64,000 bases of DNA, taken from a virus. The DNA is taken from positions 62,001 to 126,000 of the IMG/VR virus record IMGVR_UViG_3300002143_000172; one strand, written 5' to 3'. Below are positions 892 to 62,412 of the stretch, in pieces; the first letter of the stretch is position 1; every line of letters begins with the position of its first letter. The notes under the pieces were generated by a model, which did not search any database, had not been told where the DNA came from, and was given only the letters and a program-made list of their open reading frames with translations. The position numbers and the translations under genes were made by a program.

Positions 892-902
892 GAATATTTA
901 GC
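892..902 (-). promoter_or_regulatory. T4-type late box (GCTAAATATTC)
   Basis: TAAATA on the minus strand lies a few bases upstream of the ATG at 888. It matches the T4 late promoter core, as do similar boxes before other genes in the window. Confidence 0.5.
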
Positions 903-1566
903 CAATTTCCGGGAACAACATTTCTTGTACATAGGCCTTAGCTTCTTCTTCGGTAAACCCTAGATGCTGTAAACTAGCAGGGGTTCGGGGATTTTGCTTT
1001 TGATAGTAGCAATAGCGATTATGTGACATATGATAGTCATTTGGCCATTCTTGCGTGTCACCCACGGTATCTAGGTAGTATTTTAGGGTAGTTAGCCCTA
1101 CATCAATAAACTCGTCTAATTCTTCAGAGTTTACAGCGCCAATGGCTACCATGTGATTACTAAAGATATATCTGGCCCATTCCGGTAGATCTCTGGGCTT
1201 ATTCCAGTCAATTCCAGCTACTTTATTGGCAAACCAACGGCACATTGGGTGGTTTTGATCCCCGGATGCACTGTAGTCGTGGAAAGCACCGCTTACCTTA
1301 GTGGGCCCGCATACAATGTCGAATCCGTAAATTGGACTAGAATCGTTAGTATGGGGGAATATGGTAACATGGAGAAGATAGAGCTTTTTAGATTCTCTCG
1401 CATCGATAGTACTTATATGCGCCCTACGATACCGTGAACTAGTGAATACGATATCATTAGAATTAATTTTACTATTTGGACGAACTTCTACAACTTCGCC
1501 ACTTTCTCTTAACTGCTTTTCTATTTTACCTGCACAGGCAATTACTTTGTCAAACAACGAGCTCAT
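898..1566 (-). CDS. Ferredoxin-dependent bilin reductase (PcyA/PebS/PcyX family)
   Basis: The 222-residue product carries family marks: SSPIYGFDIVCG in the central sheet, a following FHDYS with the Asp expected as proton donor, and the C-terminal pattern YYQKQNPRTPASLQHLGF...AYVQEMLFP. The family reduces biliverdin IXalpha with electrons from ferredoxin. It follows heme oxygenase with a 17-nt overlap, giving a heme to biliverdin to bilin pathway. The ATG at 1566 is preferred over 1572 because AAGGA lies 8 nt before it. Phage members include PebS and PcyX; which bilin is made here cannot be read from the sequence. Confidence 0.85.
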   Translation of the reverse strand: MSSLFDKVIACAGKIEKQLRESGEVVEVRPNSKINSNDIVFTSSRYRRAHISTIDARESKKLYLLHVTIFPHTNDSSPIYGFDIVCGPTKVSGAFHDYSASGDQNHPMCRWFANKVAGIDWNKPRDLPEWARYIFSNHMVAIGAVNSEELDEFIDVGLTTLKYYLDTVGDTQEWPNDYHMSHNRYCYYQKQNPRTPASLQHLGFTEEEAKAYVQEMLFPEIG

Positions 1567-2089
1567 TATCATATTCCTTCATCATGCGTATTGCCCAATC
1601 GAAGGCTATGTTAGCTTCATCTCCCATGCTGTCGTTTAACTTAGCACGGATGTTGGTCATCAAAGTTTTTGTATCTTCAAATTCTAAAGCACGGTGACTG
1701 CCTGGAACAATTTTCTTAATCATCTGTCCACCAAACATATCACCCATGTGCCATGTGTATAGATGCGCCATTACCTTATTGGGGTCTTTACTAATACTCA
1801 ATAGATAATTATGATAATCTTGTACCACGGGTCTATAATCTGGACGAGTTTGATCTTTGGACATTTCGCAGTAGTCTTGATAGATGTAGTATGTTCTACG
1901 AAGATCTGGAAGATCATTTAGAAGTCCACAGGCACCGGCAGCGCCTTCTATCGTTCCATAGAACAATGTTTTTTGATATGTCCAATCTACCCACAAACTA
2001 AAAGGCAATGTCTTTGCGAACACTGCCTTCATAAATTCAGTTGACTCTGCTTGTTTGTGTTTTTCTTGTGTTAATTCTTTTAAGCTCAT
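1550..2089 (-). CDS. ho1: Heme oxygenase (HO-1 family)
   Basis: This 179-residue protein begins SLKELTQEKHKQAES, where the His near residue 11 matches the proximal heme ligand. It carries GDMFGGQMI, the distal-helix GD..GGQ signature. The length is a little short for bacterial HO-1 (about 180-240). It would open heme to biliverdin, CO and iron, using ferredoxin or another reductant. It overlaps clpS by 4 nt upstream and the bilin reductase downstream, so the three are translated from one message. Confidence 0.92.
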   Translation of the reverse strand: MSLKELTQEKHKQAESTEFMKAVFAKTLPFSLWVDWTYQKTLFYGTIEGAAGACGLLNDLPDLRRTYYIYQDYCEMSKDQTRPDYRPVVQDYHNYLLSISKDPNKVMAHLYTWHMGDMFGGQMIKKIVPGSHRALEFEDTKTLMTNIRAKLNDSMGDEANIAFDWAIRMMKEYDNELVV

Positions 2090-2394
2090 TCAGCCTCCAT
2101 TTTTACTACTAAGGGGAATCCATTTGCCCGTGCCATCTGTGTGGCATCCATAGTTTTTTGTTCTGCGATCTCGTGTGAATAAGTTCCGGCGATAGCACTG
2201 CCTTCGTGATGGACTTTGATCGTTAATTCAACAGCGGCAGGTTCTGGATGTTTAAAAACCCTAACCAACATGGCTACTACAAATTCTACAGGAGTTACAT
2301 CATCGTTACAAACGATGACATTAAATTTACTAGGTTCCTTAGGTTTACGGATACTAGTTTTTTTCTTCTCAATAACTTCGGTGTCTGTAGTCAT
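2086..2394 (-). CDS. clpS: ClpS adaptor protein
   Basis: The 102-residue protein has the ClpS core: FNVIVCNDDVTPVEFVV, VHHEGSAIAGTYSHEIAE and a closing ARANGFPLVVKME. ClpS delivers N-degron substrates to ClpAP. The NDD..P.EFVV segment and the HHEG region, which form the N-degron pocket and the Clp contact in known ClpS, are present. It is the first gene of the clpS-ho1-bilin reductase run. A ClpX, not ClpA, is encoded elsewhere in the window, so this adaptor would act on the host ClpA. Confidence 0.95.
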   Translation of the reverse strand: MTTDTEVIEKKKTSIRKPKEPSKFNVIVCNDDVTPVEFVVAMLVRVFKHPEPAAVELTIKVHHEGSAIAGTYSHEIAEQKTMDATQMARANGFPLVVKMEAE

Positions 2395-2410
2395 AATCTC
2401 TATTTTTAAA

Positions 2411-2442
2411 AAGTTTTAAAATGGGGGCAGGAATGCCCCCAT
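2411..2442 (-). terminator. Rho-independent terminator after hsp20
   Basis: A 9-bp stem (ATGGGGGCA/TGCCCCCAT, positions 2421-2442) with a 4-nt loop is followed on the minus strand by TTTAAAACTTTTT. It lies just after the hsp20 stop. Confidence 0.85.
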
Positions 2443-2448
2443 TGCTAA

Positions 2449-2883
2449 TTACTTAGCAGTGATTTTTAGCACCCGTGGCTTTAATGCTTCGGGGATAACA
2501 CGCTTGAGTTCGATAGTTAGCACACCATTCTTAATAGTTAGCTCACCGACCTCCATGTGTTCTGCTAGGGTCCAGGAACGAGTAAAATCTCGTGTCGCTA
2601 GTCCGCGGTGCAAATAAGCTGGTTCTTGTAGCTCAACTTCTTTGTGCTGACCCTTAACGATCATTTGAGTTTGATCAAGTTCAACTGTAATTTCTTCCTT
2701 TTCAAATCCAGTAACAGCAATTTCGATCTCATAGGTATCGTCATCGTGTTTTAGGATATTGTAAGGGGGATAGTTTTGATTAATTTGATTTGCAAAACGA
2801 TGTTCAAAATCGTTAAAAAGTGTATCAAAACCTAGAAGTGCTCTGTTGAGCGAGTTAGTATCGAAGCGTACAATTTGATTCAT
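2449..2883 (-). CDS. ibpA: Small heat-shock protein, IbpA type
   Basis: The 144-residue alpha-crystallin protein aligns by eye with IbpA: LGFDTLF near residue 17, YPPYN at about 39, AVTGFEKEEI, an ENLxVxG-like strand (QMIVKGQH), YLHRGLATRDFTRSW, and the C-terminal RVIPEALKPR tail. It would hold unfolding proteins in solution for DnaK/ClpB. Hsp20 genes are common in T4-like marine phages. It stands alone between a strong promoter and a terminator, with AAAGGAGAAAAT before its ATG. Confidence 0.95.
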   Translation of the reverse strand: MNQIVRFDTNSLNRALLGFDTLFNDFEHRFANQINQNYPPYNILKHDDDTYEIEIAVTGFEKEEITVELDQTQMIVKGQHKEVELQEPAYLHRGLATRDFTRSWTLAEHMEVGELTIKNGVLTIELKRVIPEALKPRVLKITAK

Positions 2884-9579: not shown

Positions 9580-10110
9580 CTATCGAGGCCTAATTTTTAG
9601 TTTGGTATAGATATTTTGTACACCCACTGACTGACGAATAGCATCTTGTAGTGCATCATGGAGGCCCCCTTTAGGCATATCTGGATCAAATCCTAAATCA
9701 AAGATTGTGCGTGTATCGCGGATTTGCCAGTAATTCCAGGGCAGAGGTTTTCCAAGCTGGCGATAGATATTTTCTAGGATAGTGATATCGAAGGTAGAAC
9801 CGTGTGCCCAAAATGCATCACAGCCCCAGGCAAACTTATGAAATCGGTCCATTGCTTCTACAAGGGGAACTCGATTGTCCGGACTAAATGCTTCTTCCAT
9901 TACTTTGGCATCTTGCTTAGCCCACCAATCTAGTGTGTTTGGATCTACTTCCCGGCCGAGAGCATCCTGATCGTCGATATTGATACGCATATAGAGTTTG
10001 TCGCTATATCCGTTTCCGTAGGGATTAAAGTGTACAGCGCCCAATGAAAGGACAACTGCATTTGGGGAAACTGCCATAGTTTCCATATCTACCATAAGAT
10101 GTTTGGCCAT
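9580..10110 (-). CDS. 3'-5' exonuclease, DexA/Rv2179c-like DEDD family
   Basis: The 176-residue protein has the DEDD residues in order: MVDMETM (D, E), WAHGSTFDITILENI (D) and GGLHDALQDAIRQ (HD...D). NTLDWWAKQD matches the DexA/Rv2179c subgroup (STIEWW in T4 DexA). It would digest single-stranded DNA or RNA from the 3' end. It is transcribed from its own sigma-70 promoter, back to back with the 2OG oxygenase. Confidence 0.85.
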   Translation of the reverse strand: MAKHLMVDMETMAVSPNAVVLSLGAVHFNPYGNGYSDKLYMRINIDDQDALGREVDPNTLDWWAKQDAKVMEEAFSPDNRVPLVEAMDRFHKFAWGCDAFWAHGSTFDITILENIYRQLGKPLPWNYWQIRDTRTIFDLGFDPDMPKGGLHDALQDAIRQSVGVQNIYTKLKIRPR

Positions 10111-10216: not shown

Positions 10217-10813
10217 ATGACACAAGATCTAGCGCAACCTCTAAAGGTAATCCAAGATTCCATCCCCACGGATATCGCTTATCAAGTAAGGGCCGAATTT
10301 GAAACAGCAGATTACGACAAAATTATCCAAGAACGAACAAGACAGTTTGCTAGAGAATTTCCGGAACCTTTACCAAATATGCCTGGTGCCGATGAAATTT
10401 ATTATTCTGAATGCTATCGTTCAAAATACTTAGAAAATAGTCCACTTGTATTAGAAACATTCAATCAACATCTAAAGCCTATTATCGAAGCAGAAACGAA
10501 TAAAGTTATTATTGATGCAGACCTACGATGCTACAAGATGACCGAAGGGGGGCATTTTAGAATACACAGAGATTCAAATAGATCCGACATTGGATTTATA
10601 CTTTATCTAAGCGAGAACTGGAAGTGGGATTGGGGTGGACTGTTGCTAGTGGTGCAGGACGACGATACTGCAACTGTTACTATTCCAAAGTTTAATCAAC
10701 TAGTCATTATGGATCACAAATATAGTCAGATGCCGCATTGCGTGACTCCAATAACTAGGTTTGCCAAAGAACCTAGATTTATACTAGTTGGATTTTTAAG
10801 ATCTAAAGATTAG
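10217..10813 (+). CDS. 2-oxoglutarate/Fe(II) oxygenase, prolyl-hydroxylase-like
   Basis: The 198-residue protein has the iron triad HFRIHRDS (H-x-D) and MPHCVTPI, with GFLR closing the fold and the Arg that binds 2-oxoglutarate expected after the distal His. The ATG at 10217 is chosen for its AAAGGA 6 nt upstream; a longer frame from 10103 lacks one. Such oxygenases are frequent in T4-like marine phages, with target usually unknown. One of few plus-strand genes, convergent with rpsU. Confidence 0.85.
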   Translation: MTQDLAQPLKVIQDSIPTDIAYQVRAEFETADYDKIIQERTRQFAREFPEPLPNMPGADEIYYSECYRSKYLENSPLVLETFNQHLKPIIEAETNKVIIDADLRCYKMTEGGHFRIHRDSNRSDIGFILYLSENWKWDWGGLLLVVQDDDTATVTIPKFNQLVIMDHKYSQMPHCVTPITRFAKEPRFILVGFLRSKD

Positions 10814-11049
10814 TATAATTTTTTTGGAAGTTGCTGATCGGAAAGCTTCTTTAGCCAGCGGGCTCTAGCCGCGCCCTTCTTTCTCTTGCGGGCAGTAGTT
10901 GGCTTTTCATAAAACATTCTACTCTTAAGCTCTTCTAATTTTCCAGAGTCGTCAACTTTCTGTTTAAACTTGCGTAGTGCAACATTTATAGGCATAGTGT
11001 CTGTTAAGACAACTTTAATACCTTGAATTATTTCTTTACTTTTGCTCAT
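10810..11049 (-). CDS. rpsU: Ribosomal protein bS21
   Basis: The 79-residue protein matches bS21: PINVALRKFKQKVDDSG, then LKSRMFYEKPTTARKRKKGAARARWLKKL. bS21 sits by the 16S 3' end and helps initiation; phage copies may bias ribosomes to phage mRNA. An N-terminal extension of about 10 residues is present. It overlaps clpX by 14 nt. Confidence 0.95.
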   Translation of the reverse strand: MSKSKEIIQGIKVVLTDTMPINVALRKFKQKVDDSGKLEELKSRMFYEKPTTARKRKKGAARARWLKKLSDQQLPKKLY

Positions 11050-12265
11050 TTTTCTCTTTTTTATCGAATATCATCACCGCAGGGGTTCCGGAAATTGTTT
11101 CTTTACTTATCACTATCTTGTTTAAACCACGCTCAACTAAGTTCATAGCGTCAAATTGATAGGGTAATAGTGTTTTTTCTAGAATATTCTTAAGGCCGCG
11201 AGCATTAGTTTTTAGCTCTTTGGCTCTTCTCGCAATCTCTTTTAAAGCCGATGTTTCAAATTGTAGATCGATCCCATCAATTTCAAAAATATACTGATAC
11301 TGCTTGCTAGGACTATTTTTTGTTTCTGTAAGTATTTGTACCAGTTGATTTTCAGTTAGTTCATCTACATTGGTAATGATTCCAAATCTTCCAACAAATT
11401 CTGGAATAAATCCGTATTGTATTAAATCTTTAGGAATCACTTCTCGATAGTGGTCTGACTGTTGTGATGCTGTAGGAATTGCTGAATGGAATCCGACTCC
11501 TCTATTTTCTAATCTTGATTTAACGATCTTTTCTAATCCAACAAATGACCCGCCGCAGATAAACAAGATTCCCGATGTATCAATTTCTTGCATATCACCG
11601 CCCGGGTGCTTTCTCTTTCCGGTGTGCGGTACTCGCATAATACTACCTTCGATCATCTTTAGCAGAGCTTGTTGTACACCCTCTCCACTTACATCTCGAC
11701 TAATATTGACACTTTCACCTTTCCGAGCAATCTTATCAATTTCGTCAATGTAAACGATTCCTCTGCTGGCTTTTTCTATATCTCCGTCTGCTTCATTAAT
11801 AAGTCGTAGTAGAATACTTTCAACATCGTCGCCCACATATCCTGCTTCTGTAACACTAGTGGCATCGCAAATTGCAAAAGGTAGATCTAGAAATTCAGCA
11901 ATTTTTCGGGCTAGCATTGTTTTGCCGCATCCTGTTGGTCCCAGGAGTAGCACATTAGTTTTTTCTAATTTGATGTCTTTGCTAGGATTAAAAATTCGTT
12001 TGAAATGTTGACTAATTGCCACACTTAAACTTATCTTTGCATCTTCCTGTCCTGTAATGTATTCGTCGAGATAGTCTTTAATTAAGCAAGGATTTAACAC
12101 TTTCTTGTCTGACGGGAACGCTTTAATCTTTTCATCCTCTAAGATGTTAACACAAAGATCTATGCAATCATTACATATGGCGGCGTGATCACCAACGATC
12201 AACTTCGTAACATCTTCTTTGCTTTTGCCGCAAAAATCACAACTGTGGTTCACTTGTTTTGGCAC
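11036..12265 (-). CDS. clpX: ClpX ATPase
   Basis: The 409-residue protein is a full ClpX: an N-terminal C4 zinc domain (CDFCGK...CNDC), Walker A GPTGCGKT, pore loop GYVGDD, Walker B IVYIDEIDKIA, and sensor-2 NARGLKNI. The ClpP-docking IGF loop reads VGF (NRGVGFHSA), so docking on host ClpP looks possible. The start is GTG at 12265 or GTG at 12253. It may steer degradation of tmRNA-tagged and host proteins; no phage ClpP is seen in the window. Confidence 0.95.
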   Translation of the reverse strand: MPKQVNHSCDFCGKSKEDVTKLIVGDHAAICNDCIDLCVNILEDEKIKAFPSDKKVLNPCLIKDYLDEYITGQEDAKISLSVAISQHFKRIFNPSKDIKLEKTNVLLLGPTGCGKTMLARKIAEFLDLPFAICDATSVTEAGYVGDDVESILLRLINEADGDIEKASRGIVYIDEIDKIARKGESVNISRDVSGEGVQQALLKMIEGSIMRVPHTGKRKHPGGDMQEIDTSGILFICGGSFVGLEKIVKSRLENRGVGFHSAIPTASQQSDHYREVIPKDLIQYGFIPEFVGRFGIITNVDELTENQLVQILTETKNSPSKQYQYIFEIDGIDLQFETSALKEIARRAKELKTNARGLKNILEKTLLPYQFDAMNLVERGLNKIVISKETISGTPAVMIFDKKEKNEQK

Positions 12266-12650
12266 TGTTTAATACGCTCTCTAAAAAATGTTCTATATGA
12301 GTTACCCTATTTGAATTAATGTGATCATAAATTCCCGAAAGATTTACATCTTCAGTTTTATAATAAACACCATTTCTACTTAGGATATATCCGCTCAAAG
12401 CCTGCGTAATAATATTTACACAATCAATGTTTATATACTTATACTCAGATCGGTTAAGGGCGTACAAAAACCAAACAATATTAGCTTCACTGCTATACAC
12501 ATACAAATTTAAATCTTCTGGGACATCGTGAGTTGCTAACCACTTACTAACAAAATCTTGTTCTTCCTCTGACATGTGAATTAGGAATATACTTTTATTG
12601 CTATTCTCAAAAATGTCAGGTGGGGTAATTAGAGTAATATTTCCCTGCAC
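12237..12650 (-). CDS. Hypothetical protein upstream of clpX
   Basis: The 137-residue acidic protein contains LNLYVYSSEANIVWFLYALNRSEYKYINID, an alternating strand-helix pattern. It overlaps clpX by 29 nt and follows the membrane protein by 2 nt, so it belongs to this operon. The pairing with clpX may hint at an adaptor role, but this is only context. Confidence 0.6.
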   Translation of the reverse strand: MQGNITLITPPDIFENSNKSIFLIHMSEEEQDFVSKWLATHDVPEDLNLYVYSSEANIVWFLYALNRSEYKYINIDCVNIITQALSGYILSRNGVYYKTEDVNLSGIYDHINSNRVTHIEHFLESVLNSAKTSEPQL

Positions 12651-21543: not shown

Positions 21544-21570
21544 GAAAAAGAAAGCACCCGAAGGTGCTTT
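21544..21570 (-). terminator. Rho-independent terminator of the tmRNA
   Basis: Stem AAAGCACC/GGTGCTTT (21551-21570) with a 4-nt loop (TTCG on the minus strand), followed on the minus strand by CTTTTTC. Confidence 0.9.
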
Positions 21571-21611
21571 CTTGCTATTTTCGGTTACAAGGTATAACTA
21601 CCTCGTGGAGG

Positions 21612-21653
21612 TTACGCCGCTAGGCGAACTTCTCCAAAAAATGCGTCGTTTGC
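21612..21653 (-). other. tmRNA tag reading frame
   Basis: From a GCA resume codon the frame reads ANDAFFGEVRLAA then TAA. The AND start and LAA end match known tags; LAA is the ClpX degron. A hairpin (ACCTC/GAGGT) follows the stop. Confidence 0.85.
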
Positions 21654-21737
21654 ATTTATGGTTTTTGCTTGATTTACAGTCATCGCCTACTGTGTTGCCT
21701 CTTTCGCTATCTCACCATGTCGAAACCGGTCGGGCCC

Positions 21738-21849
21738 ATTAGGGAATATATTATCTTGGCTCCTGCTGTTAGGCTATCAACACTCAAGTTCCGCCCTCAT
21801 CATAATCTATGATTAGTTTGGGCTTCAGATTGGATCATAATATACTCTC
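21738..21849 (-). other. Intervening segment of the permuted tmRNA
   Basis: The 112 nt between the CCA end and the coding-piece start are flanked by GAGTATATTAT and ATAATATATTC, which pair with one wobble. This would bring the two ends together for processing, as in known two-piece tmRNA precursors. Confidence 0.75.
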
Positions 21850-21917
21850 TGGTGGACCCGAGGGGAATTGAACCCCCGTCCACGATGCCTTCACTACGAA
21901 GGAATTACAACAATTCT

Positions 21918-22121
21918 TTACTGCGGCTGAATATTAGCCGCTTGCAAACCTTTTTGTCCTTGTACTACATCGAACGATACTGTTTGATTCTCTGTTAGAA
22001 CTTTGAAGCCCGAAGTTTGAATTTCACTGTAGTGGGCAAATAAATCTGCACCACCTTTGTCTGGAGTAATAAACCCAAAACCTTTGGTTTCATTAAACCA
22101 TTTTACTTTACCTGTTGCCAT
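21918..22121 (-). CDS. cspA: Cold-shock protein, CspA family
   Basis: The 67-residue protein has both RNA-binding motifs: KGFGFI (RNP1) and DLFAHYS (RNP2), plus the GKVKWFN start. The LFAHYSEIQ form and the ending ANIQPQ look like proteobacterial CspA. It would act as an RNA chaperone or antiterminator. It is driven by a perfect sigma-70 promoter and lies directly upstream of the tmRNA. Confidence 0.95.
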
Positions 22122-22147: not shown

Positions 22148-22176
22148 ATTATACTATATTTATTGGATTGTGTCAA
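22148..22176 (-). promoter_or_regulatory. Consensus sigma-70 promoter, cspA-tmRNA
   Basis: TTGACA (22171-22176), a 17-bp spacer and TATAAT (22148-22153) on the minus strand. An AATAAATATAG late-like core lies in the spacer. Confidence 0.88.
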
Positions 22177-45018: not shown

Positions 45019-45414
45019 TTATAGTGTGAACGCTGTAACAGATACGCTACCTAATGCGATACCGTTAACTGTACCAACTGCCTTAATTGCTGTTTCTAAA
45101 GCATCTGCTGTGCTAGATTCTTCGTCTGGAAGACCCATGCCTAACCCACTTGGGCTTAGAGAGTCTGCGCCAGTATCTTCAATAGCAATGCGTAGATCGC
45201 GATTTGCACCTGTACCAGTGTTTTGAACTGTACCGATCATTGCTACTGTGGCAAATAATGAGCAAGCCTGAATAGTCTTGTCAATTGCACCGTTTACAAC
45301 ACCAACTTGACCATTTACTGCGGCTGGGAAGGCAATGTTAAAAAAACTTAGTGTACTTGGACGCTGACTTGGGGCTGCGACTGAACCGTTAACTCGTGTA
45401 ATTCCTGCTGACAT
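45019..45414 (-). CDS. Tandem paralogue, virion-type protein A
   Basis: The 131-residue protein begins MSAGITRVNGSVAAPSQRPSTLSFF and holds SLSPSGLGMGLPDEESSTADALETAI. It shares about half its residues with the next upstream gene. Alternating strands and small residues fit a capsid or sheath decoration protein, which is inference. It has its own late box, leader hairpin, AAAGGAGAAAT and terminator, so it should be made in quantity late. Confidence 0.75.
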   Translation of the reverse strand: MSAGITRVNGSVAAPSQRPSTLSFFNIAFPAAVNGQVGVVNGAIDKTIQACSLFATVAMIGTVQNTGTGANRDLRIAIEDTGADSLSPSGLGMGLPDEESSTADALETAIKAVGTVNGIALGSVSVTAFTL

Positions 45415-45567: not shown

Positions 45568-45969
45568 TTATAATGTGAAAGCGGCAACAGTAGCACCTGT
45601 TAAATCAATGCTATTTTCACCAACATCGTCACCTAGAGCAGTGATTGCGGCTTCTAGAGCGGCTGCTGTGGTAGCTGCCTCATCTGGAAGGCCCATACCT
45701 AAACCACTTGGGCTAAGACTATCAACACCTGTGTCTTCAATACCGATAACTAATCCCTGTCCTGTACCACCTGTAGCACTTAATGTTCCGACCATTGCTA
45801 CTGTAGCAAATTCTGAACATGCGCGGACTGCTTGATCAATAGCGCCATTGACAAGACCGACTTCGGCCGTACAATCAACACCAAAATCAATTTGGAAAAA
45901 AGTTAGCGTACTTGGACGCTGACTTGGGGCTGCAACTGAGCCATGAACTCGTGTAATTCCTGCTGACAT
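45568..45969 (-). CDS. Tandem paralogue, virion-type protein B
   Basis: The 133-residue protein begins MSAGITRVHGSVAAPSQRPSTLTFF and holds SLSPSGLGMGLPDEAATTAAALEAAI, closely matching the 45019-45414 product. It has one or two extra Cys residues (VDCTAEVG). The flanks (late box, hairpin, ribosome site, terminator) are duplicated with it. Confidence 0.75.
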   Translation of the reverse strand: MSAGITRVHGSVAAPSQRPSTLTFFQIDFGVDCTAEVGLVNGAIDQAVRACSEFATVAMVGTLSATGGTGQGLVIGIEDTGVDSLSPSGLGMGLPDEAATTAAALEAAITALGDDVGENSIDLTGATVAAFTL

Positions 45970-56409: not shown

Positions 56410-56628
56410 TTATTTTTCTCGGTACACTATACGACCTTTGGTTAGATCGTATGGACTCATTTCGAGTTTAACTCGATCGCCCATTAATATTTGAATTTTA
56501 TTTTGGCGCATTCTGCCACTTATGTGACCAAGGATCGTAGATCCTTGTTCTAGCTTTACCCGAAACATTGCGTTGGGTAACACTTCTTCAACCCTGCCTT
56601 CTAGGTTGATCATATCTTCTTTTGCCAC
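56410..56628 (-). CDS. infA: Translation initiation factor IF-1
   Basis: The 72-residue OB-fold protein matches IF-1 throughout: [62 protein letters not shown]-1 in phage genomes is rare. With bS21 it suggests control of initiation on phage mRNA. Confidence 0.97.
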
Positions 56629-58575: not shown

Positions 58576-58898
58576 ATTCTAAAACTTTCTCCACAACCGC
58601 ATCGGTCTCGTTCGTTTGGGTTAACAAAATCAAAACCTTCGTTAAGACCTTTTTTAACCCAATCCACTGTTAGTCCTTCTAGGTAAACATGAGACCTTCC
58701 ATCTACCCAAACTGTTACTCCGTAGCTTTCATATTTGAATTGATCCCTAGTAACTGGTGTATGATCAACATATTCTAATGTATAGGCCAATCCACTGCAT
58801 CCAGTAGTTTTAACACCAAGGCGTATGCCCAGGCCTTTGCCTCTATGTGCTAACTGTTGTTGGACCTTAGTGGCCGCTTGTTCAGTTAGTGAGATCAT
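58572..58898 (-). CDS. iscA: IscA-type Fe-S carrier protein
   Basis: The 108-residue protein follows Isc[41 protein letters not shown] and [14 protein letters not shown], with all three Cys present. It overlaps iscU by 17 nt. With ErpA it gives two carriers of different types in one operon. Confidence 0.95.
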
Positions 58899-60288
58899 GT
58901 CTTTCTCTGTAGTCTTTTATTGCCGCTTTGATAGCATCTTCTGCTAGTATTGAACAATGTATTTTAACTGGCGGTAGGGCGAGCTCTTCAGCAATCTCTG
59001 AATTCTTAATGCTTCCTGCTTGGTCAAGAGTTTTACCTTTGACCCATTCAGTAACAAGACTGGAACTGGCAATAGCTGAACCACAATTGTGTGAACCGAC
59101 TCTATTAGAGAAAAACACATGAGCACCATCCTCCAATTTTAAATCATAAACTACGACTAATTTGCCATCTCTTTCACATCCACGCAATTGATTTTGATGA
59201 GTTATCGCTGAAATGCCTACGATTTCCATTCCATTGTGAATAAAATTCTGCACTTCTGGTAATGATTGTGCAATATCTTCTACTGCTAAAAATAACGAGT
59301 CGTATCCGGCTGTGGCCAATTGCTTACGCCGGTTGGCCACATAATTTGATTCCTCAGACCGATCCTGCATAAATTTCGGCATCTGCTTTGTATATACTTC
59401 TATACATTTTTTCTTGCCAGGCACAATAAAGTCCGGACTTGCTGGACCAGATTCCGTCTGAATCCATATCTTGCCAGCACTCCATCTTACAGCTACATTG
59501 TTTTCTTCAAATAAACTGATGTATTTTTGTTCAATACTAGTAGGTTTAGTCCAATCTCGTTGTGCCATTCCCTGTTGCCATTTTTCAATGTATGCTAGAT
59601 TTGACCAATTTTTAACTGAGGCTGCACTTGAACGCTTCTTTTTAGTTGCTAAATCTTTACACACATACCCAGGTTGATTTTGTGGTAATACCGAGTGGTC
59701 AAACTCCTTATTCCATGCTGTCATTCTGACACTATTTTTTTGTTTAAGTGTAGTACAATGTCTGTTGTTAGTAAGAATCCTTAGTTCGTGTTCAGTTATC
59801 TCATATAACTCTTGTCCTACTTGTAGCTGTTGCGCTTCGATTGGCTTGTTATTGGCATTCCAAAATATATGTTCCTTAGTACAAATTAATGAAAAAGTTC
59901 CAGGATTAATATTTTGTCTACTAGTTTCTCTTTGAAATGTAATTACTAACAAATCATCCACTTCGACCGAATGTTTAATAATATCTCGCACTTTTTGCGG
60001 ATGAATAGTATTTCCATCCCACGCTAACACTTCATCACCAACGACTAACGATGATATCTTTTTTCTATTAGTTGGTGTATTCACTGGCATATTGCTTGTT
60101 AGACACCCATATGTTTTAAATTTTGCGTCTTTGATAATTCCATCTTCTACTCTAATCTGTAATTTCATTACATCGCCACAAGCAGGTGCGCCCACCATTC
60201 CTGTGCCAACATCGGGATCATCTTTTTGGAAAGATCCTGCATTTCTAGGATTTTCATAATGATCAAGTACCTTGTCTGAATATGCCAT
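58882..60288 (-). CDS. iscU: IscU scaffold interrupted by an intein
   Basis: The 468-residue precursor has IscU residues 1-61 (DHYENPRNAGSF; GAPACGDVMKLQI; KFKTYG), then a 340-residue intein, then 67 residues beginning CGSAIASSSLVTEWVKGKTLD and holding VKIHCSILAEDA. Without the intein the exteins total 128 residues, the usual IscU length. The +1 residue is the second cluster Cys (Cys63 in E. coli numbering). Cys37, the LPPVK Hsc-binding loop and Cys106 (E. coli numbering) are kept. Confidence 0.96.
   Translation of the reverse strand: MAYSDKVLDHYENPRNAGSFQKDDPDVGTGMVGAPACGDVMKLQIRVEDGIIKDAKFKTYGCLTSNMPVNTPTNRKKISSLVVGDEVLAWDGNTIHPQKVRDIIKHSVEVDDLLVITFQRETSRQNINPGTFSLICTKEHIFWNANNKPIEAQQLQVGQELYEITEHELRILTNNRHCTTLKQKNSVRMTAWNKEFDHSVLPQNQPGYVCKDLATKKKRSSAASVKNWSNLAYIEKWQQGMAQRDWTKPTSIEQKYISLFEENNVAVRWSAGKIWIQTESGPASPDFIVPGKKKCIEVYTKQMPKFMQDRSEESNYVANRRKQLATAGYDSLFLAVEDIAQSLPEVQNFIHNGMEIVGISAITHQNQLRGCERDGKLVVVYDLKLEDGAHVFFSNRVGSHNCGSAIASSSLVTEWVKGKTLDQAGSIKNSEIAEELALPPVKIHCSILAEDAIKAAIKDYRERHDLTN
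59086..60105 (-). other. Intein with endonuclease-like insert in IscU
   Basis: Precursor residues 62-401. It starts with Cys (CLTSNMPVNT), has a block-B T-x2-H (ICTKEHIFW), block F (VVVYDLKLEDGAHVFFSN) and ends in His-Asn before Cys. The insert at about 225-340 has SPDFIVPGKKKCIEVYTK and R..L...GYDSLFLAVED, like a Vsr or PD-(D/E)XK homing nuclease, so it may be mobile. Confidence 0.9.
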
Positions 60289-61863: not shown

Positions 61864-62412
61864 TTACTTGACGCCAATAATCATAAATCTACTAAATTTC
61901 CAGGTCGGATATTCAAAGTCCTTTTGGCCTGCATAATTTAGTGTAGTGATTGGATAACTGTTTACGAATGCCTTAAGATCTGTAGAATGGACATGGTGAT
62001 CCTCGTGCGGCATGTTGTTGCCTTGGAGTATGATTCTAGTTCCATAGGGAATCTGATCAAACCATTCGGTGCTGTCAAAATGTTCTGTGCTGGTGTTAAT
62101 AACTAGGTCCGGACTGCCTCTTACATAACTGTTGCAGTCAAGGGTAAAGGCTTTGAACTTCCAATCTTGCCAAACCCAATTTTCATTAATCATATCTGCA
62201 ATAGGTTCGCAGGCAGGATCAAGGTCAAAACTTTGTATATGGTCAACTTTAAACTTACCGCGTGACAATAATAGGAACGCAGTGACTCCATACCAGCCGC
62301 CATATATGTAGGTTAGATTAGAAGTCCATTTGGTTCTTTCTAATTCTTCACAGAGCCAAATTTTACTACCAACTTGACCGCTACTAAAGGCGTCGGAATT
62401 TATTTCATACAT
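61864..62412 (-). CDS. SAM methyltransferase-like protein
   Basis: The 182-residue product starts MYEINSDAFSSGQVGS (62412). It has LTYIYGGWYGVTAFLLLSRG (motif I variant), IQSFDLDPACEPIADMINE (motif II Asp) and LVINTSTEHFDSTEWF (motif IV-like). Target unknown. It overlaps the ThDP-fold gene by 8 nt. Confidence 0.7.
   Translation of the reverse strand: MYEINSDAFSSGQVGSKIWLCEELERTKWTSNLTYIYGGWYGVTAFLLLSRGKFKVDHIQSFDLDPACEPIADMINENWVWQDWKFKAFTLDCNSYVRGSPDLVINTSTEHFDSTEWFDQIPYGTRIILQGNNMPHEDHHVHSTDLKAFVNSYPITTLNYAGQKDFEYPTWKFSRFMIIGVK

Follow-up and report, generated by a model that had tools for sequence, protein, structure and literature searches.

The window, a stretch of 64,000 nucleotides (positions 62,001 to 126,000) of an IMG/VR virus record of 159,170 bases (IMGVR_UViG_3300002143_000172, hereafter G000), carries a complete circularly permuted tmRNA gene (ssrA) on the minus strand at 21912..21612, and its terminator extends to 21548. 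When the whole window was searched with Rfam cmscan at the gathering threshold, two matches were obtained in total, and both correspond to this gene. RF01850 (beta_tmRNA) matches 21949..21547 with 139.4 bits (E 1.6e-42, cut-off 84) over all 331 model positions, while RF04321 (tmRNA_permuted) matches 21912..21612 with 132.5 bits (E 1e-25, cut-off 47) over all 213 positions. The full-length beta model is the best of its clan, ahead of the alpha and cyano models, and places the gene in the beta subtype. ARAGORN independently called a permuted tmRNA (tmRNA*) with the tag peptide ANDAFFGEVRLAA. The original prediction of a two-piece tmRNA on a phage, made from the letters alone, is thus borne out by a significant covariance match in a virus record. 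The features of the locus are collected in Table 1.

Table 1. Genes and RNA elements around ssrA and clpX in the window
Feature	Position	Strand	Basis or remark
Acceptor (3′) piece with T-arm GGACGGGGGTTCAATTCCCC	21850..21914 (5′ end approximate)	minus	RF04321 1-213 alignment from 21912
Intervening segment, 112 nt, expected to be excised	21738..21849	minus	Spacer ends pair in an 11-bp helix
Coding (mRNA-like) piece, 5′ part through end of tag frame	21612..21737	minus	Acceptor strand GGGCCCG, D-loop GGTTTCGAC
Tag frame from resume codon GCA to stop TAA, encoding ANDAFFGEVRLAA	21612..21653	minus	ARAGORN and sequence
Predicted intrinsic terminator, 11-bp stem and T-run	21548..21573	minus	Directly after tmRNA; last hairpin in the RF01850 model
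csp, cold-shock protein	21918..22121	minus	PF00313, 100 bits; ends a few bases before tmRNA
Predicted sigma70-type promoter, TTGACA-17-TATAAT, 12/12	22148..22176	minus	Upstream of csp
clpX, 409 aa	11036..12265	minus	NCBIfam NF003745 equivalog, 513 bits, cut-off 359
Ribosomal protein bS21	10810..11049	minus	PF01165, 51 bits; overlaps clpX end
137-aa gene	12237-12650	minus	Overlaps clpX start
Rv2179c-like 3′-5′ exoribonuclease	9580-10110	minus	Shortly after clpX-bS21; homologue in 70/80 loci
ClpS-like adaptor	2086..2394	minus	NCBIfam ClpS models, up to 80 bits, under curated cut-offs
Hsp20/IbpA-like small heat-shock protein	2449..2883	minus	IbpA model, 120 bits, under its cut-off
infA, translation initiation factor IF-1	56410..56628	minus	TIGR00008, 113 bits, cut-off 61

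How do the two pieces of this RNA fit together? The gene order is permuted: the acceptor 3′ piece is encoded upstream of the coding piece, and the intervening segment lies between them. The 3′ end of the acceptor piece reads CGGGUCC-ACCA, with an encoded CCA whose last A is at 21850. The acceptor stem forms across the two pieces with 7/7 pairs (GGGCCCG/CGGGUCC) and contains the G3-U70 wobble, the alanine identity element. The helix between the spacer ends has an equally long counterpart in 0/100 shuffles, and in the minimum-energy fold it continues the acceptor stem (z = -4.5 relative to shuffles). The tag frame closes with a hydrophobic-Ala-Ala end (LAA) followed by the stop. The coordinates first proposed for the CCA end (21850), the coding start (21737), the 112-nt spacer and the 7-bp acceptor stem are exact when read from the sequence, and the complementary spacer ends and the LAA end of the tag (21653..21612) were likewise recovered.

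With the promoter upstream of csp and the terminator directly after the tmRNA, we read csp and ssrA as one predicted transcription unit, which would be made by the host RNA polymerase and is separate from clpX. Since ssrA has its own terminator (21573..21548), co-transcription with clpX is not expected. Among 51 parsed related phage tmRNAs, a terminator follows ssrA in 42, and a promoter of at least 10/12 stands just before the acceptor piece in 20 (shuffled expectation 1.75).

The tmRNA had been described as lying next to a phage clpX. The gene is a true clpX, downstream and on the same strand, but its distance of 9.3 kb, with 12 ORFs between, makes “next to” too strong a wording. In the alignment with bacterial ClpX, the phage protein has the zinc-binding C4 motif, Walker A and B, the GYVG pore loop and the RKH loop, and its ClpP-docking IGF loop is present as a VGF version. 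As relatives we took the best 80 of 178 viral ClpX matches in IMG/VR, which share 63-82% identity with the phage ClpX. Homologues of the genes that overlap the two ends of clpX are nearly constant among these loci: bS21 is found in 71 of the 80, and the 137-aa gene in 78. The latter has no match in deposited phage records, and the model of its protein (pLDDT 90) has a nucleoside-deoxyribosyltransferase-like fold. Given this predicted fold, a role of the 137-aa protein as an SspB-like adaptor was considered and dropped. The locus begins with nrdA-nrdB-glutaredoxin, followed by variable genes, ssrA among them; next come the 138-aa, 129-aa, 432-aa and 137-aa genes, and then clpX, bS21 and the exoribonuclease; further on lies hsp20-clpS-heme oxygenase-bilin reductase. 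This last block (898-2883, minus strand), in which the bilin reductase is PcyA/X-like, occurs together in 15-19 related loci.

The order of ssrA and clpX is conserved across the relatives. A permuted tmRNA scores above the cut-off in 60 of the 80 records with this ClpX clade (the best 80 of 178), and in all 60 records with both genes it lies upstream of clpX on the same strand, 2.6-17.5 kb away. Among the 20 records with no tmRNA, six have less than 9 kb of searchable sequence upstream of clpX. Clustering at 90% identity gives 57 ClpX clusters, 43 of which include a tmRNA. The related tmRNAs are mostly of the beta type, and the alpha model fits some of them better. The clade itself is distinct: the best cellular ClpX match is 52% identical, the best among deposited phage records about 50%, and in a tree of 86 proteins the 41 phage sequences (the window ClpX and every second relative) fall into a single group supported at 100/100, apart from the bacteria and five deposited phage records. 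The association with ClpX is real for this one lineage, and a functional link is plausible but unproven; the pairing could also come from common ancestry of a conserved stretch of the genome. The new element is the conserved position of ssrA upstream of clpX within one phage lineage, of which we found no description in the open-access literature searched.

What kind of phage carries this locus? No terminase match was found in G000, which is probably a fragment, and genes missing from it are accordingly weak evidence. A larger relative, G018 (322,512 bases), is syntenic with positions 898-51820 of the window and has genes for terminase, tail sheath, tail tube, UvsX and ssDNA-binding protein, from which we conclude that these are T4-like phages of jumbo size. 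A search of 15 records for a tyrosine integrase gave no match. Besides infA and the bS21 gene, G000 has 31 tRNA genes for 19 amino acids, with none called for Tyr (record 19-58 kb; L003 and L004, with the part shared by the two stretches counted once). SmpB was not found in 26 records including the 322-kb G018, under a search in which control genomes gave matches, and host SmpB would thus be needed. ClpP is absent from the 159-kb fragment G000 and present in all four larger relatives tested (G012, G018, G066 and G067). The phage ClpP genes (L225:10515-11108, L221, L222 and L223) conserve the catalytic triad (Ser, His and Asp), and the G018 protein is about 63% identical to enterobacterial ClpP. 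A host search with the phage PstS gave a best match of 57% among 300 genomes of the order holding Azohydromonas.

The tmRNA gene looks intact and under selection, judging from the pattern of change among the relatives. In the 51 tmRNAs, parsed by pairing (one further sequence, L138, gave no parse, and L120 was mis-parsed), the acceptor stem is fully paired in 50 and G3-U70 is present in 49, with an NCC tail. Compensatory changes occur at pairs 4, 5 and 6 of the stem. The stem covariation amounts to 0.60, as compared with 0.157 after shuffling, and none of 500 shuffles reaches it (8 distinct stems); sliding the stem pairing out of register destroys the signal. The resume codon, tag and stop are intact in 49 of the 51, which together encode 27 different peptides ending in Ala-Ala, most of the form AND....LAA. 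Finally, the spacer-end helix averages 11.0 bp in 40 tmRNAs, as compared with 5.5 bp in shuffled sequences. The stem covariation, the intact tags and the spacer helix together argue that the phage ssrA genes are not decaying host fragments.

With respect to origin, the nearest neighbour of each of 50 phage tmRNAs is another phage tmRNA (median identity 82%) and not one of the 16 sampled permuted tmRNAs from bacteria (median 59%). The tmRNA tree, which places bacteria among the phages, has too little support for a donor to be named. A permuted beta tmRNA scores above the cut-off in 13 of the 300 genomes of the order holding Azohydromonas. Several relatives, among them L115, L110 and L097, have the T-loop GGCAGTG and the D-loop AGGATCGATT in place of TTCGA and GGTTTCGAC. 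The GGCAGTG T-loops were considered as a new feature and dropped, as sampled alphaproteobacterial tmRNAs have similar loops.

Two-piece tmRNAs are already known from phages, and novelty as a phage feature is not upheld. The statement that known phage tmRNAs are one-piece is contradicted by the report that 53 of 133 unique phage tmRNAs were classed as two-piece, almost all of them belonging to aquatic phages and the type case being Melnitz (2022; PMC9004378), and by well over a hundred IMG/VR contigs that match permuted-gene patterns. Our scans of IMG/VR with three canonical permuted patterns returned at least 120 matching stretches each. In the same material (320 loci, among the matches listed), 58 loci found through their tmRNA extend at least 7 kb downstream, and clpX is present in 0/58. 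Permuted tmRNAs are therefore widespread in phage contigs, usually with no clpX nearby.

The closest precedents share parts of this arrangement. Melnitz and related marine phages have a complete, free-standing circularly permuted ssrA in a large myophage without an integrase, as here, and ribosome upkeep or protein recycling was proposed for it, a role similar to the one we favour (PMC9004378). The Melnitz gene is of the alphaproteobacterial type and is reported to be accompanied by a glutamine riboswitch, whereas the present one is beta-type and the window gave no riboswitch match; ClpX is not mentioned in that paper (PMC9004378), whereas here ssrA stands upstream of clpX. The bacterial beta_tmRNAs of Burkholderiales (RF01850) share the gene order, the acceptor stem logic, the T- and D-loops and the tag style, with a match to the full-length model. 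They differ in the spacer, which is 5-42 nt in 13 sampled Burkholderiales genes as compared to 112 nt here, and in the tag, which is ANDERFALAA-like there and has 13 residues ending in RLAA here. Among cultivated phages, the Sinorhizobium jumbo phage Phosso has a ClpX and a permuted tmRNA (113 bits), but the two genes are 31 kb apart and its ClpX, about 49% identical, falls outside this clade. The Phosso tmRNA (L278, 349596-350198), which ARAGORN missed, is unusually long, spanning about 600 nt. Another Sinorhizobium jumbo phage, AP-J-162, has one tmRNA and ClpX (PMC11242549). In Pseudomonas phage Callisto (Arenbergviridae), clpX is followed directly by a bS21 homologue, and then by ibpB and clpS; a permuted tmRNA was not found there, and the Callisto ClpX is about 42% identical. 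Huge phages with tmRNA, SmpB, IF1 and bS21 are known, and for them, too, a phage-borne set of genes for taking over translation has been proposed (PMC7162821); the present lineage differs in that SmpB was not found (26 records) and that ClpX stands in a fixed order with ssrA.

Taking these observations together, we consider it likely that this T4-like jumbo phage has a working circularly permuted ssrA, which serves host-SmpB-dependent ribosome rescue within a translation kit. We propose the following course of events. The host RNA polymerase would transcribe csp-ssrA from the consensus promoter to the terminator just after ssrA. The precursor would fold by pairing of the spacer ends and the acceptor strands, and tRNA-processing enzymes, by analogy with the bacterial two-piece tmRNAs, would cut at 21850/21849 and 21738/21737 to leave two RNAs joined by the acceptor stem. 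The host AlaRS would then charge the tmRNA via G3-U70, and host SmpB and EF-Tu would bring it to ribosomes that have stalled on broken mRNA. The addition of A-ANDAFFGEVRLAA would follow, and the LAA end would send the product to ClpXP or ClpAP. The main use would be the recycling of ribosomes and the clearance of broken proteins during the destruction of host RNA, with the tmRNA as one member of a translation kit that also comprises the 31 tRNA genes, IF-1 and bS21. Judging from the conserved gene order, the phage ClpX, joined by ClpP in the larger relatives, is probably involved in the disposal. The hybrid phage lambda-immP22 is known to require SsrA. During T4 infection, host tRNAs are degraded but the host SsrA remains stable (PMC9697503), in keeping with a requirement for ribosome rescue in infected cells. 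That the phage brings its own ribosome rescue RNA, as the original prediction had it, is supported by a gene that looks intact and under selection.

The prediction went further and suggested that host proteins are tagged for the phage ClpX. On a stronger version of this idea, the tmRNA would tag host or phage proteins specifically for the phage ClpX(P), and the ssrA-clpX pair would be kept by selection. The presence of the permuted tmRNA in 60 of the best 80 of 178 records of the ClpX clade, always upstream and on the same strand, and in 43 of the 57 clusters fits such a coupling, as do the retained catalytic and ClpP-docking motifs of the phage ClpX, the ClpP with its catalytic triad in the larger relatives, and the ClpS and Hsp20 genes nearby. 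The phage tag also retains both ends, AAND.. and LAA, and these are the ends read by E. coli SspB and ClpX. The conserved order is, however, also expected from shared descent of one phage lineage; the ssrA terminator speaks against co-transcription with clpX; host ClpXP would read LAA tags anyway; and clpX is more closely bound to bS21 and the gene with the nucleoside-deoxyribosyltransferase fold than to ssrA. Moreover, as clpX is absent from 58/58 loci found through their tmRNA and reaching 7 kb or more downstream (among the matches listed), permuted phage tmRNAs do not need clpX. We hold specific coupling to be a doubtful explanation. It is only tentatively suggested that the lineage runs its own ssrA-ClpX(P) route, in which the phage tag is matched to the co-evolved ClpX clade and the phage handles the trans-translation products. 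What stands of the tagging claim is that clpX is conserved downstream of ssrA in this lineage; the tagging itself is read into a gene that is not adjacent and belongs to a separate unit, and phages with permuted tmRNAs are generally without clpX nearby.

Could the RNA instead act against host trans-translation? Mycobacteriophage DS6A encodes a tag-less, tRNA-like tmRNA, and a similar molecule is a strong inhibitor of tmRNA, perhaps through titration of SmpB (PMC4131195). A decoy of this kind, which titrates SmpB or blocks the host system, would agree with the lack of a phage SmpB in the 26 records, but it would need none of the resume codon, tag and stop that are intact in 49 of 51 relatives with 27 tags ending in Ala-Ala, nor the 3′ coding piece that is kept; we regard it as very unlikely. 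Least probable, and already disfavoured, is a host ssrA carried along without phage function after imprecise prophage excision or through an attachment site. It is true that ssrA is a common integration site and that gene exchange with a prophage was considered by the Melnitz authors (PMC9004378). A passive passenger would nevertheless not account for the absence of tyrosine integrase from the 15 records, a promoter and terminator belonging to ssrA itself, the compensatory stem pattern, the closer kinship of 50/50 phage tmRNAs to one another than to the 16 sampled bacterial genes, or the fixed position of ssrA relative to the nrd and clpX blocks. Functional ribosome rescue with host SmpB thus remains our preferred reading.

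Two-piece tmRNAs are widespread in phage contigs. An intact tmRNA in a fixed order with the phage's own ClpX (43 of 57 clusters) makes two purposes of phage tmRNAs, recycling alone or tagging for a phage protease, testable, and two phages in culture, Phosso and Callisto, have some of these genes. If the ssrA-ClpX(P) route were true, trans-translation products in infected cells would be handled by the phage and not by the host.

Two further features were observed in the window. An IscU/NifU-type Fe-S scaffold gene (58882-60288, minus strand) is interrupted by about 320 aa of Hint-like (intein-like) sequence, with IscU matches at residues 1-65 and 384-464. Two similar genes are neighbours at 45019-45414 and 45568-45969 (minus strand); they encode proteins of 131 and 133 aa and share the start MSAGITRV.GSVAAPSQRPSTL
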